Part shown: positions 10,041-51,715 of the stretch, piece by piece | Layout: every line of letters starts with the position of its first letter | How positions within the stretch are numbered: the stretch's first letter is position 1 | Source of the DNA: Pseudomonas xantholysinigenes | GTDB lineage: Bacteria > Pseudomonadota > Gammaproteobacteria > Pseudomonadales > Pseudomonadaceae | Direction: 5' to 3' | Length of the DNA stretch: 64,000 nt | Assembly (NCBI RefSeq): GCF_014268885.2 | Contig: NZ_CP077095.1 | Location: 2,671,501-2,735,500 of the forward strand | Made by a program: the position numbers and the translations under genes | Notes under the pieces: generated by a model | Databases searched by the model: none | What the model was told of the DNA's origin: nothing | What the model saw: only the letters and a program-made list of their open reading frames with translations

Positions 10041-10069
10041 TTGACTTGCCAAGTGGCCTCAGGCTACTT
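10041..10069 (+). promoter_or_regulatory. Predicted sigma-70 promoter of the ilvA leader
   Basis: TTGACT at 10041-10046 is followed after 17 bases by CTACTT at 10064-10069. A start point near 10076 would lie almost on the leader peptide ATG at 10079, so the leader peptide may be translated from a nearly leaderless transcript. No Shine-Dalgarno sequence is seen before it. Confidence 0.5.
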
Positions 10070-10078
10070 TCCCAGCCC

Positions 10079-10144
10079 ATGAACACACGCCTGCAGTGCC
10101 GCGCCCTGAGCATTATTACCGCCATTATCGGATTGGCGGGCTAG
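10079..10144 (+). CDS. ilvA leader peptide (attenuation)
   Basis: A 21-codon open frame ends 81 bp before ilvA. Its peptide MNTRLQCRALSIITAIIGLA(G) contains Ile-Ile-Thr-Ala-Ile-Ile in six codons, together with two further Leu codons; these are the end product and substrate of the isoleucine branch. The first Ile codons (10112-10117) lie immediately before a CCGCCA segment (10119-10124) that can pair with TGGCGG (10134-10139). This is the arrangement expected of a ribosome-stalling leader that senses charged tRNA-Ile. It is too short for ordinary gene calling. The function is inferred from codon content and the downstream terminator. Confidence 0.8.
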   Translation: MNTRLQCRALSIITAIIGLAG

Positions 10145-10185
10145 CGCGCACACGCACCGAACCCGCCCTGGAGGCGGGTTTTTTC
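10119..10185 (+). terminator. Transcription attenuator upstream of ilvA
   Basis: The rho-independent terminator has stem AACCCGCC (10160-10167) and GGCGGGTT (10173-10180), loop CTGGA, and a T-run to 10184. GGCGGG at 10135-10140 can instead pair with CCCGCC of the terminator stem (2:3 antiterminator), while CCGCCA at 10119-10124 can pair with TGGCGG (1:2 protector). Stalling at the Ile codons would mask segment 1 and favour the antiterminator. Confidence 0.82.
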
Positions 10186-10225
10186 TCTCTGACTCCCGGG
10201 CCCATTAAAAAACCAGGAGTCATCG

Positions 10226-11788
10226 ATGACCAGCCTCAGCGTTCCCTCGCGTACCCCCGCAACGCCCCAGCAACTGCTGTCCGAGCAGGTGCGGCGGATT
10301 CTCTCGGCGCCGGTGTACGACCTGGCCATCGAAACCCCACTGCAAGCCGCCCCGGCGCTGTCGGCCTGCCTGGGCAACCAGGTGCTGCTCAAGCGCGAGG
10401 ACCTGCAGCCGACCTTCTCCTTCAAGATCCGTGGCGCCTATACCCGGCTCTCGCGCCTGAGCCCCGCCCAGCGCGCCCGCGGGGTGATCACCGCCTCGGC
10501 CGGCAACCATGCCCAGGGCGTGGCCCTGGCCGCCGCACACCTGGGGCTGACAGCGACCATCGTCATGCCCACTACCACGCCGTCGCTCAAGGTCGAGGGC
10601 GTGCGCTCGCGAGGCGGTCAAGTGGTCTTGCATGGCGAAAGCTTCCCCCACGCCCTGGCCCATGCCTTGGCCCTGGCCGACAGCCACGGGGCGACCTTCG
10701 TGCCACCGTTCGACGACCCGGATGTAATCGCCGGGCAGGGCACGGTGGCCATGGAGATCCTGCGCCAGCACCCGGGCCAGCTGGACGCGATCTTCGTGCC
10801 GGTGGGCGGCGGCGGGCTGATCGCCGGCATCGCCGCCTACGTCAAGTACCTGCGCCCCGACGTCAAGGTGATCGGCGTGGAACCCGAGGACTCCAACTGC
10901 CTGCAGGCCGCCATGGCCGCTGGCGAGCGGGTGGTGCTGGCGCAGGTCGGCACCTTCGCCGATGGCGTGGCGGTGGCGCAGATCGGCGCGCACTGTTTCG
11001 AGCTGTGCCGGCACTTCGTCGATGACGTGGTGACGGTCAGCAGCGATGAGTTGTGCGCGGCTATCAAGGACATCTACGACGACACCCGTTCGATCACCGA
11101 GCCTTCCGGCGCCCTGGCCGTGGCTGGAATCAAGAAGTACGTGGCCCGCGCAGGTGTGAAGGGCCAGACGCTGGTGGCCATCGACTCCGGTGCCAACGTC
11201 AACTTCGACCGCTTGCGCCACGTGGCCGAGCGCGCCGAACTGGGCGAGCAGCGCGAGGCCGTCATCGCCGTGACCATCCCCGAGCGCCCGGGGAGCTTCC
11301 GCGCCTTCTGCCTGGCGCTGGGCAAGCGCCAGATCACCGAATTCAACTATCGCTATCACCCAGGCAAGGAGGCGCACCTGTTCGTTGGCGTGCAGACCCA
11401 CCCCCAGCACGACCCGCGCGAAGCCTTGCTGGCCAGCCTGGCCGAGCAGGGTTACCAAGTGCTCGACCTGACCGACAACGAGTTGGCCAAGTTGCACGTG
11501 CGCCACACCGTGGGCGGGCACGCGGCGCCAGGGGCCACGGAGCGGGTGCTGCGCTTCGAGTTTGCCGAGCGGCCAGGGGCCTTGCTGGGCTTTCTCGAAC
11601 GCTTGGGCAAGCGCTGGAATATCAGCCTGTTCCACTACCGCAACCACGGCGCCGCCCAGGCACGGGTGTTCGCCGGGTTGGAGGTACCGGACGATGAGCT
11701 GGCCGGGTTGCCGCAGGCGCTGGAGGCCATGGGCTACCCGTACTGGGACGAGACGGACAATCCGGCCTATCGGTTGTTCATGGGCTGA
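10226..11788 (+). CDS. ilvA: Threonine dehydratase (threonine ammonia-lyase), biosynthetic
   Basis: The 520-residue PLP enzyme converts L-threonine to 2-oxobutanoate and ammonia, the first committed step to isoleucine. The catalytic domain (about 25-340) has the PLP lysine in PTFSFKIRGAY, SAGNHAQGVALAA, and the phosphate-binding VGGGGLIAGIAA. Two ACT-like regulatory domains follow at the C-terminus (about 345-515; VTIPERPGSFRAF and RFEFAERPGALLGF), which is the long, isoleucine-inhibited form rather than the short catabolic one. It is preceded by a leader peptide rich in Ile codons and a terminator, so expression is probably controlled by tRNA-Ile charging. AGGAGTC lies just upstream of the ATG. 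Confidence 0.95.
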   Translation: MTSLSVPSRTPATPQQLLSEQVRRILSAPVYDLAIETPLQAAPALSACLGNQVLLKREDLQPTFSFKIRGAYTRLSRLSPAQRARGVITASAGNHAQGVALAAAHLGLTATIVMPTTTPSLKVEGVRSRGGQVVLHGESFPHALAHALALADSHGATFVPPFDDPDVIAGQGTVAMEILRQHPGQLDAIFVPVGGGGLIAGIAAYVKYLRPDVKVIGVEPEDSNCLQAAMAAGERVVLAQVGTFADGVAVAQIGAHCFELCRHFVDDVVTVSSDELCAAIKDIYDDTRSITEPSGALAVAGIKKYVARAGVKGQTLVAIDSGANVNFDRLRHVAERAELGEQREAVIAVTIPERPGSFRAFCLALGKRQITEFNYRYHPGKEAHLFVGVQTHPQHDPREALLASLAEQGYQVLDLTDNELAKLHVRHTVGGHAAPGATERVLRFEFAERPGALLGFLERLGKRWNISLFHYRNHGAAQARVFAGLEVPDDELAGLPQALEAMGYPYWDETDNPAYRLFMG

Positions 11789-14286: not shown

Positions 14287-14340
14287 CAAGCTACAAGCTA
14301 CAAGCTGCAAGCTGCAAGCTGCAAGCTACAAGCTACAAGC
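14287..14340. repeat. Heptamer tandem array, left arm (CAAGCTR x7.7)
   Basis: There are seven full copies plus CAAGC. Copies 1-2 and 6-7 are CAAGCTA and copies 3-5 CAAGCTG. It is the inverted counterpart of the array at 14365-14483 and lies 14 bases upstream of the hypothetical gene's start codon, within its presumed 5' leader. Confidence 0.95.
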
Positions 14341-14364
14341 AAAGCGCGGCGGCTTTCAACTCAC

Positions 14365-14483
14365 AGCTTGAAGCTTGAAGCTTGCAGCTTGCAGCTTGCA
14401 GCTTGCAGCTTGCAGCTTGCAGCTTGCAGCTTGCAGCTTGCAGCTTGCAGCTTGCAGCTTGCAGCTTGCAGCTTGCAGCTTGC
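14365..14483. repeat. Heptamer tandem array, right arm (AGCTTGM x17)
   Basis: Seventeen perfect 7-bp units run from 14365 to 14483: two AGCTTGA then fifteen AGCTTGC. The array ends three bases before the PhnB-like gene's stop codon. With the left arm it could fold into a stem of about 50 bp across a 24-base loop. Open reading frames across it encode only a heptapeptide repeat and are not genes. Confidence 0.95.
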
Positions 14484-51414: not shown

Positions 51415-51534
51415 GAACAGACACCAGGACGGGAGGAATGAACCCGACGGTGACGGTGGCTGGCAGCCGCGCAGGCGGCAGGGCGCCTGGCACACTCAGC
51501 GCACCCGCCCTCCGCGGGAATGGCCATGGGCGAA

Positions 51535-51715
51535 TCAGGCCGGTCTCCGGGCTTGCGAGGGTCGTCGGGCATTCACCTTCCCATGCTCGGGGCACAGTGG
51601 TCTGTCGAATGCCTGGCTCGCTTACCGTTGCGGGGGCAGCGCCGGACTTCCCGCCAGGGGCGAGGCACCGGCTTCCCGTTTAACCCCAGGCGCTGCGGCC
51701 TGGGACACCTGAAAG
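51535..51715 (-). promoter_or_regulatory. Cobalamin (B12) riboswitch
   Basis: On the minus strand the conserved parts appear in order: GGGAAGCCGGTGCC, then GTCCGGCGCTGCCCCCGCAACGG, TAAGCGAGCC, GACAGACCACTG-like core and AAGCCCGGAGACCGGCCTG, the B12 box. This is the classical AdoCbl riboswitch core. It sits about 120 bp upstream of the btuD-like gene; the intervening GCGGGAATGGCC and CCCGCCCTCCGCGGG segments are a possible expression platform. Binding would shut off uptake when B12 is sufficient. Confidence 0.93.

Follow-up and report, generated by a model that had tools for sequence, protein, structure and literature searches.

Within the window, by which we mean the whole 64,000-nucleotide stretch of Pseudomonas xantholysinigenes DNA analysed here, the forward strand carries ilvA (10226-11788), which encodes a threonine ammonia-lyase of 520 amino acids with two C-terminal regulatory stretches. 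ilvA is likely to be a single-gene unit, although a scan of the DNA separating it from its downstream neighbour (11868) detected no terminator-like site. Upstream, on the same strand, a -35-like hexamer TTGACT (10041-10046) is separated by 18 nt from a -10-like hexamer TACTTT (10065-10070), whose end lies 8 nt before the ATG of a short open reading frame (ORF), MNTRLQCRALSIITAIIGLAG (10079-10144). An earlier sequence-only reading of this DNA had described a 21-codon, Ile-rich frame here, and such a frame is present, running from the ATG at 10079 to a TAG stop codon at 10142-10144; it is predicted to be leaderless or nearly so. It contains a pair of putative control codons for isoleucine, ATT ATT (10112-10117), and two more Ile codons, ATT ATC (10124-10129).

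Segment 1, CCGCCA (10119-10124, +), located by folding and a comparison of 34 leaders, can pair with segment 2, TGGCGGG (10134-10140, +). An alternative partner of segment 2 is segment 3, CCCGCC (10162-10167, +), which can itself pair with segment 4 (10173-10178, +). The proposed scheme of 1:2, 2:3 and 3:4 pairing stands, in that all four segments are present and the scheme is conserved in comparison, as pairing potential. The 3:4 helix is the 9-bp stem of a predicted intrinsic terminator (10159-10184, +), followed by six T (10179-10184); stem and T-tract lie, as had been claimed, 41 bp upstream of the ilvA ATG. The same region matches the Rfam family RF00624 (P9) at 10109-10182 on the forward strand (cmscan 87.3 bits; gathering score 43). 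Elsewhere, the window holds a Cobalamin riboswitch on the reverse strand (51533-51714, 104.1 bits) and, at 14287-14483, two 7-bp tandem repeat arrays, CAAGCTA x7.7 and CAGCTTG x17.1.

Taken alone, the leader folds with a z of about -2, which is of weak significance, and the case therefore rests on comparison. A scan of the window returned one terminator-like site, namely the leader terminator, where shuffled sequences average 0.9; a strict consensus promoter scan of the window reported no site at the leader. The separate pieces folded at -10.9 (1:2), -15.0 (3:4) and, with a small hairpin inside, -15.5 kcal/mol (2:3). The 2:3 helix is the predicted fold when segment 1 is masked and the transcript ends at segment 3. 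For the full-length RNA with segment 1 masked the equilibrium prediction is still the terminator, so antitermination would have to be kinetic.

Conservation of the leader ORF and its upstream spacing

A motif regular expression picked out 202 unique regions from 315 loci; of these, L202 had no ORF, its upstream DNA being missing. The expression missed the leader-like loci L056, L057, L132 and L134, together with L133 and L135, which look like chance. Four regions (L014, L202, L263 and L292) were dropped for lack of upstream DNA, leaving 198 scored leaders. Many of these are close relatives and not independent, and 34 representatives at most 80% identical were also used.

Of the ATGs that lie from -48 to -15 relative to the Ile anchor, 203 share its frame and 18 do not. 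The anchor reads ATT-ATT, at the same place as in the window, in 189 of the 198 leaders and encodes Ile-Met or Met-Ile in 7, while Ile-Phe replaces the pair in three distant leaders (L330, L332 and L333). Codon choice is also distinctive, with ATT making up 587 of 662 Ile codons in leaders as against 11 of 99 in five genes of the window. Outside the stretches that encode helices, nothing in the peptide except the start codon is as well conserved as the Ile pair. The stop codon falls 30 nt past the anchor in 175 leaders, with the remainder at +33 (10), +18 (11), +15 (1) and +42 (1), a position that suits masking of segment 2 by a terminating ribosome, given the usual ribosome footprint.

Promoter-like sequences were sought with a gap to the ATG of 3-12 nt, using rough weights of our own for the sigma-70 consensus. 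The best-scoring -10-like box ended 6-10 nt before the ATG in all 198 leaders (83 at 6, 84 at 7, 17 at 8, 13 at 9 and 1 at 10 nt), and the mean score on these rough weights was 10.6, compared with 1.2 in shuffled upstream DNA. TTGAC plus any base was the best-scoring -35 in 167/198. Among the 34 representatives the gap was 6-9 nt, with a TTGAC -35 in only 18 and a score below 5 in 4. Stretches of the Shine-Dalgarno consensus did not exceed 4 nt in any of the 198 leaders, 87 of which had one of 3-4 nt. The near-leaderless position earlier ascribed to the peptide agrees with this spacing, which is present in the window and conserved among leaders; with the 5' end so predicted, transcription would begin at the leader ATG or no more than about three bases away from it.

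Alternative pairing in divergent leaders

Helices were evaluated in an alignment of 34 divergent leaders (A1), against shuffles that take no account of relatedness. The 1:2 helix was paired in 89.3% of cells, with slid versions reaching at most 57.6%, and 29 cells were changed on both sides as against 8.6 in shuffles. Its covariation score was reached by 0/500 shuffles, relatedness being ignored, and its count of pairs with two-sided change (4) was equalled in 70/500. In the main change ACC replaces the codon GCC and, with it, GTG replaces GCG, so that the peptide has Thr-Val in place of Ala-Ala; it is the pairing, rather than the peptide, that has been kept.

In the same alignment the six core pairs of the 2:3 helix form in every leader with letters there. 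Segment 2 varies only between C and U: at column 63 C (17 leaders) and U (17 leaders) always stand opposite a constant G of segment 3; the outer two pairs fail in 19/34 and 10/34 leaders. There was no two-sided covariation in 2:3 in this alignment, and its score was not above shuffles. In the 3:4 helix five of the eight pairs never vary and the core is nearly invariant. This least variable core would fit a fixed terminator that simply lowers ilvA expression with no regulation, but such a terminator would not account for the covariation in 1:2, the constraint on segment 2, the presence of an ORF or the preference for ATT, and we regard it as extremely improbable. Mutually exclusive 1:2, 2:3 and 3:4 helices are thus present in the form of pairing potential, with strong covariation in 1:2 only.

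The sequence-only reading took the region for an attenuator, an interpretation that would fall if the leader codons were not conserved among orthologues. The comparison did not refute it: the leaders keep the Ile pair and its frame, as well as the place of the stop codon and the scheme of pairing, and this comparative evidence backs the interpretation. We consider it highly likely that a leader-peptide transcription attenuator lies ahead of ilvA which, we infer, would respond to isoleucine in the form of charged tRNA-Ile. What was observed is a conserved ORF, the potential to pair into alternative helices, the sequence of a terminator, the spacing of the promoter-like elements and an association with a second ilvA copy described below. 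By analogy with known attenuators in its stalling and footprint, a ribosome short of isoleucine would stall at ATT-ATT and cover segment 1; segment 2 could then pair with segment 3, no terminator would form and ilvA would be transcribed. When isoleucine is ample, the ribosome would reach the stop codon and cover segment 2, allowing 3:4 to form and transcription to end. With no translation, 1:2 would form and 3:4 would again terminate. Termination would leave an RNA of roughly 105 nt, and P9, making up most of it, would be the terminated product of the attenuator.

P9 matches and the genes that follow the leader

Rfam gives RF00624 the type 'Gene' (sRNA), and the original P9 paper is reportedly Livny 2006. 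The family has 74 positions, beginning inside the leader ORF, and a consensus structure with hairpins 1:2 and 3:4 and no 2:3 helix. At E 0.001 or better it was found in 224/298 genomes of the genus, 217 of them over the curated cut-off, and at family level in 71/148 genomes (67 over the cut-off) from 8/19 genera, some of the matches belonging to non-ilvA gene classes or to chance. A leader ORF with its ATG 21-33 nt before the P9 start was present in 85 of the first 88 loci and absent in three weak ones (L058-L060); these genus-set matches were set aside as leaders, since they appear to be chance. Weak matches were nevertheless not mere noise, as L053-L057 and others are leader-like sequences before other genes. 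P9 scored above gathering in 6/13 selected loci. In one genome (that of L128) two P9 matches lie about 90 bp apart with a run of N between them, possibly an assembly artefact.

Downstream of the 202 regions we found ilvA directly in 160, a SnoaL-like gene followed by ilvA in 8, a SnoaL-like gene alone in 10, a SnoaL-like gene followed by an AAA_33 kinase in 7, AAA_33 alone in 13 and none of these in 4. Three of the four exceptions lie at the end of stored DNA and one is from Microbulbifer. Since P9 was the route to most loci, the sample is weighted towards ilvA.

Named genomes were also scanned with a pattern, which gave at least 119 stretches. Among the matches listed, one of the three genes (ilvA, SnoaL-like or AAA_33) was downstream and co-oriented in 106/119; 3 ran off the stored DNA, 1 (Microbulbifer) had a FlaR-like kinase, and 9 had neither a leader-like ORF nor a linked gene and look like chance. 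Such an arrangement bears on whether P9 could instead be a stand-alone trans-acting sRNA that lies before ilvA incidentally. Its Rfam type speaks for this, as does its naming, in an excerpt of PMC2375449, among sRNAs that the search of that paper did not recover. Against it stand the co-oriented genes and the conserved in-frame ORF of P9 with promoter-like sequence at its ATG, and a terminated attenuator would itself resemble an sRNA; we judge the stand-alone sRNA to be very improbable.

The leader is present in gamma-, beta- and, in one uncultured genome, alphaproteobacteria. Examples outside Pseudomonas, among the matches listed, are found before ilvA in Trinickia and Bordetella, before AAA_33 in Achromobacter and Variovorax, and before a SnoaL-like gene in Sulfuriferula and one uncultured Rhizobiaceae genome; a Methylococcales genome has both SnoaL-like and AAA_33. 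A covariance model, R1, built from alignment A1, gave matches in 54/398 genomes at phylum level (39/212 genera) and 20/369 at class level (19/272 genera). In the P. xantholysinigenes genome there is one such leader (E 1.2e-23), the next best R1 match having an E of 0.027.

Among 35 inspected R1 loci the gene was ilvA in 3, SnoaL-like in 5, AAA_33 in 7, a FlaR-like kinase in 7, GNAT-like in 1 and thrA-like in 5, and 7 look like chance; we assigned the names GNAT and thrA, and in most cases FlaR-like, by eye. 'FlaR-like' denotes a resemblance, at 74-80 bits against a cut-off of 215 for three proteins. The AAA_33 protein was considered as a homoserine kinase and rejected, its best score being 26.8 bits against a cut-off of 197. 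The thrA-like loci, one of which (L342) is a Thr_leader by Rfam, raise the question of whether threonine, alone or together with isoleucine, is the signal, as it is for the thr operon leader. In keeping with this, most leaders have Thr after the Ile pair, but this Thr codon at the start of segment 1 becomes Pro, Arg, Ser or Ile in relatives where the Ile pair mostly stays, and the window is below the Thr_leader gathering score. Threonine sensing seems to us improbable.

Some partner genes lie in one operon with another partner or with ilvA. In the record of a P. aeruginosa genome region, a P9-like sequence is followed by a gene for an 'SgcJ/EcaC family oxidoreductase' and then by ilvA, the genes overlapping by 4 bp. 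A table excerpted from PMC5150637 gives values of 1.927 for PA1325 and 1.801 for PA1326/ilvA2; judging by the title and the gene numbering, it would concern induction by sphingosine, and PA1325 would be the SnoaL-like gene. The P. xantholysinigenes genome has an AAA_33 kinase homologue at 2161566-2162039 (51% identity) with no R1 leader. L136, from one distant genus, has the leader ahead of a SnoaL-like gene that a transposase-like ORF (named by eye) seems to interrupt; the start of an AAA_33 kinase gene comes next.

Given that the non-ilvA linked genes (kinases, SnoaL-like and one GNAT-like) would also suit drug modification, the leader might use nascent-peptide arrest to sense that translation is slow in general, or that a particular antibiotic is present, and not isoleucine. 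The C-terminal residues of the peptide are indeed well conserved in the ilvA class. Segments 1 and 2 encode these residues, however, and the residues vary as the segments do, as in the replacement of Ala-Ala by Thr-Val, whereas the Ile pair, the start codon apart, leads in conservation outside the helices. In addition, ilvA is downstream in 168/202 regions, though the sampling favoured it. We consider nascent-peptide arrest unlikely.

The ilvA copy linked to the leader

The P. xantholysinigenes genome has two full-length ilvA copies. An IlvA search in 39 genomes without a P9 match gave one full-length match in each, at 69-75% identity, and rpiA flanked 26/29 of the ilvA loci fetched from such genomes. 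By comparison, rpiA was beside 0/105 leader loci, some of them short or of non-ilvA classes. No R1 leader was found upstream of the core ilvA in 30 loci, the core copy of P. xantholysinigenes included; three weak R1 matches (15-19 bits) considered as leaders of core ilvA were rejected, as they lie beyond the gene end. The leader marks the second ilvA copy and not the rpiA-linked one.

We read 158 copies of P9-linked IlvA, from a sample in which some genomes were fetched twice; 104 were complete and 54 cut by the end of stored DNA. The complete copies comprised 82 of 320-375 amino acids, 18 of at least 495 and 4 of other lengths, with short forms over-represented because 35/54 of the cut copies already exceeded 400 amino acids. 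The surroundings of the 82 short genes yielded no C-terminal remnant. With many linked IlvA proteins (82 of the 104 complete copies, in this sample biased to short forms) lacking the regulatory domain, attenuation may be their only isoleucine feedback. The IlvA of the window retains the regulatory region.

In a quick tree, the P9-linked ilvA of L002, L008 and L022, from one Pseudomonas sublineage, groups with core ilvA1; rpiA was not found in the flanks of these three loci. The leader may have moved between ilvA paralogues. The short and long labels of the tree are unreliable for end-cut loci such as L061, L069, L071 and L074.

Discussion

The wider leader family is a more interesting result than the ilvA attenuator itself. 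On balance, we lean towards a portable, leaderless attenuator of isoleucine shortage that would govern a scattered proteobacterial regulon reaching beyond isoleucine synthesis. Its proposed members would be an accessory threonine ammonia-lyase, often one without a feedback domain, together with a SnoaL-like partner and small P-loop kinases of two unrelated families; one genome would add a GNAT-like protein. We know of no isoleucine role for the SnoaL-like protein, the AAA_33 kinase, the FlaR-like kinase or the GNAT-like protein. These four could serve in an emergency response to depletion of tRNA-Ile, for instance by inactivating inhibitors of IleRS or isoleucine analogues, a detoxification idea that we hold as doubtful; within the portable-attenuator reading, the regulon is the better supported half. 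If the attenuator is as proposed, a catalogued Pseudomonas sRNA would be a switch that works in cis, and looking for targets on which it acts in trans would be misdirected. It would also provide an isoleucine handle on the poorly characterised SnoaL-like, AAA_33 and FlaR-like families.

Vitreschak 2004 is said to be a comparative study of proteobacterial attenuators. In the open-licence PMC literature, covered mostly through listings, we recognised no description of attenuation of a pseudomonad ilvA or of P9 as an attenuator, and the available portions of PMC2965389, PMC2864571, PMC2659441, PMC8395346, PMC3349714 and PMC2375449 do not describe one for P9 or ilvA. With this open-licence, largely listing-based coverage, novelty is provisional; it seems to lie in taking P9 for an isoleucine attenuator, in a predicted leaderless design that is conserved, and in the occurrence of this design before several gene families unrelated to one another.

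Amino-acid operons with leader-peptide attenuators include trp, his, leu, ilvGMEDA and thr. Like these classical systems, the leader described here combines a short ORF carrying control codons, 1:2, 2:3 and 3:4 pairing and a terminator before the gene. It differs from them in that ilvA is the first and probably the only gene, in an ORF predicted to be near-leaderless and without a clear Shine-Dalgarno site, and in the reuse of the same leader before genes outside the pathway. With Rfam RF00506 (Thr_leader) it has Ile and Thr codons and a terminator in common, but Thr_leader lies upstream of thrA, and at gathering score the window matched only Cobalamin and P9, not Thr_leader. By score the leader is a member of RF00624, which Rfam in contrast types as an sRNA gene and whose consensus has no 2:3 helix. 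In its predicted layout the leader resembles trpL of Sinorhizobium meliloti: an excerpt of PMC7298713 describes the ATG of the trpL (rnTrpL) leader peptide as the 5' end of the transcript. The likeness, drawn from that description, is of an ATG at the 5' end, which for our leader is predicted, with Trp there in place of Ile. If it holds, leaderless leader peptides would extend to the gamma- and betaproteobacteria.
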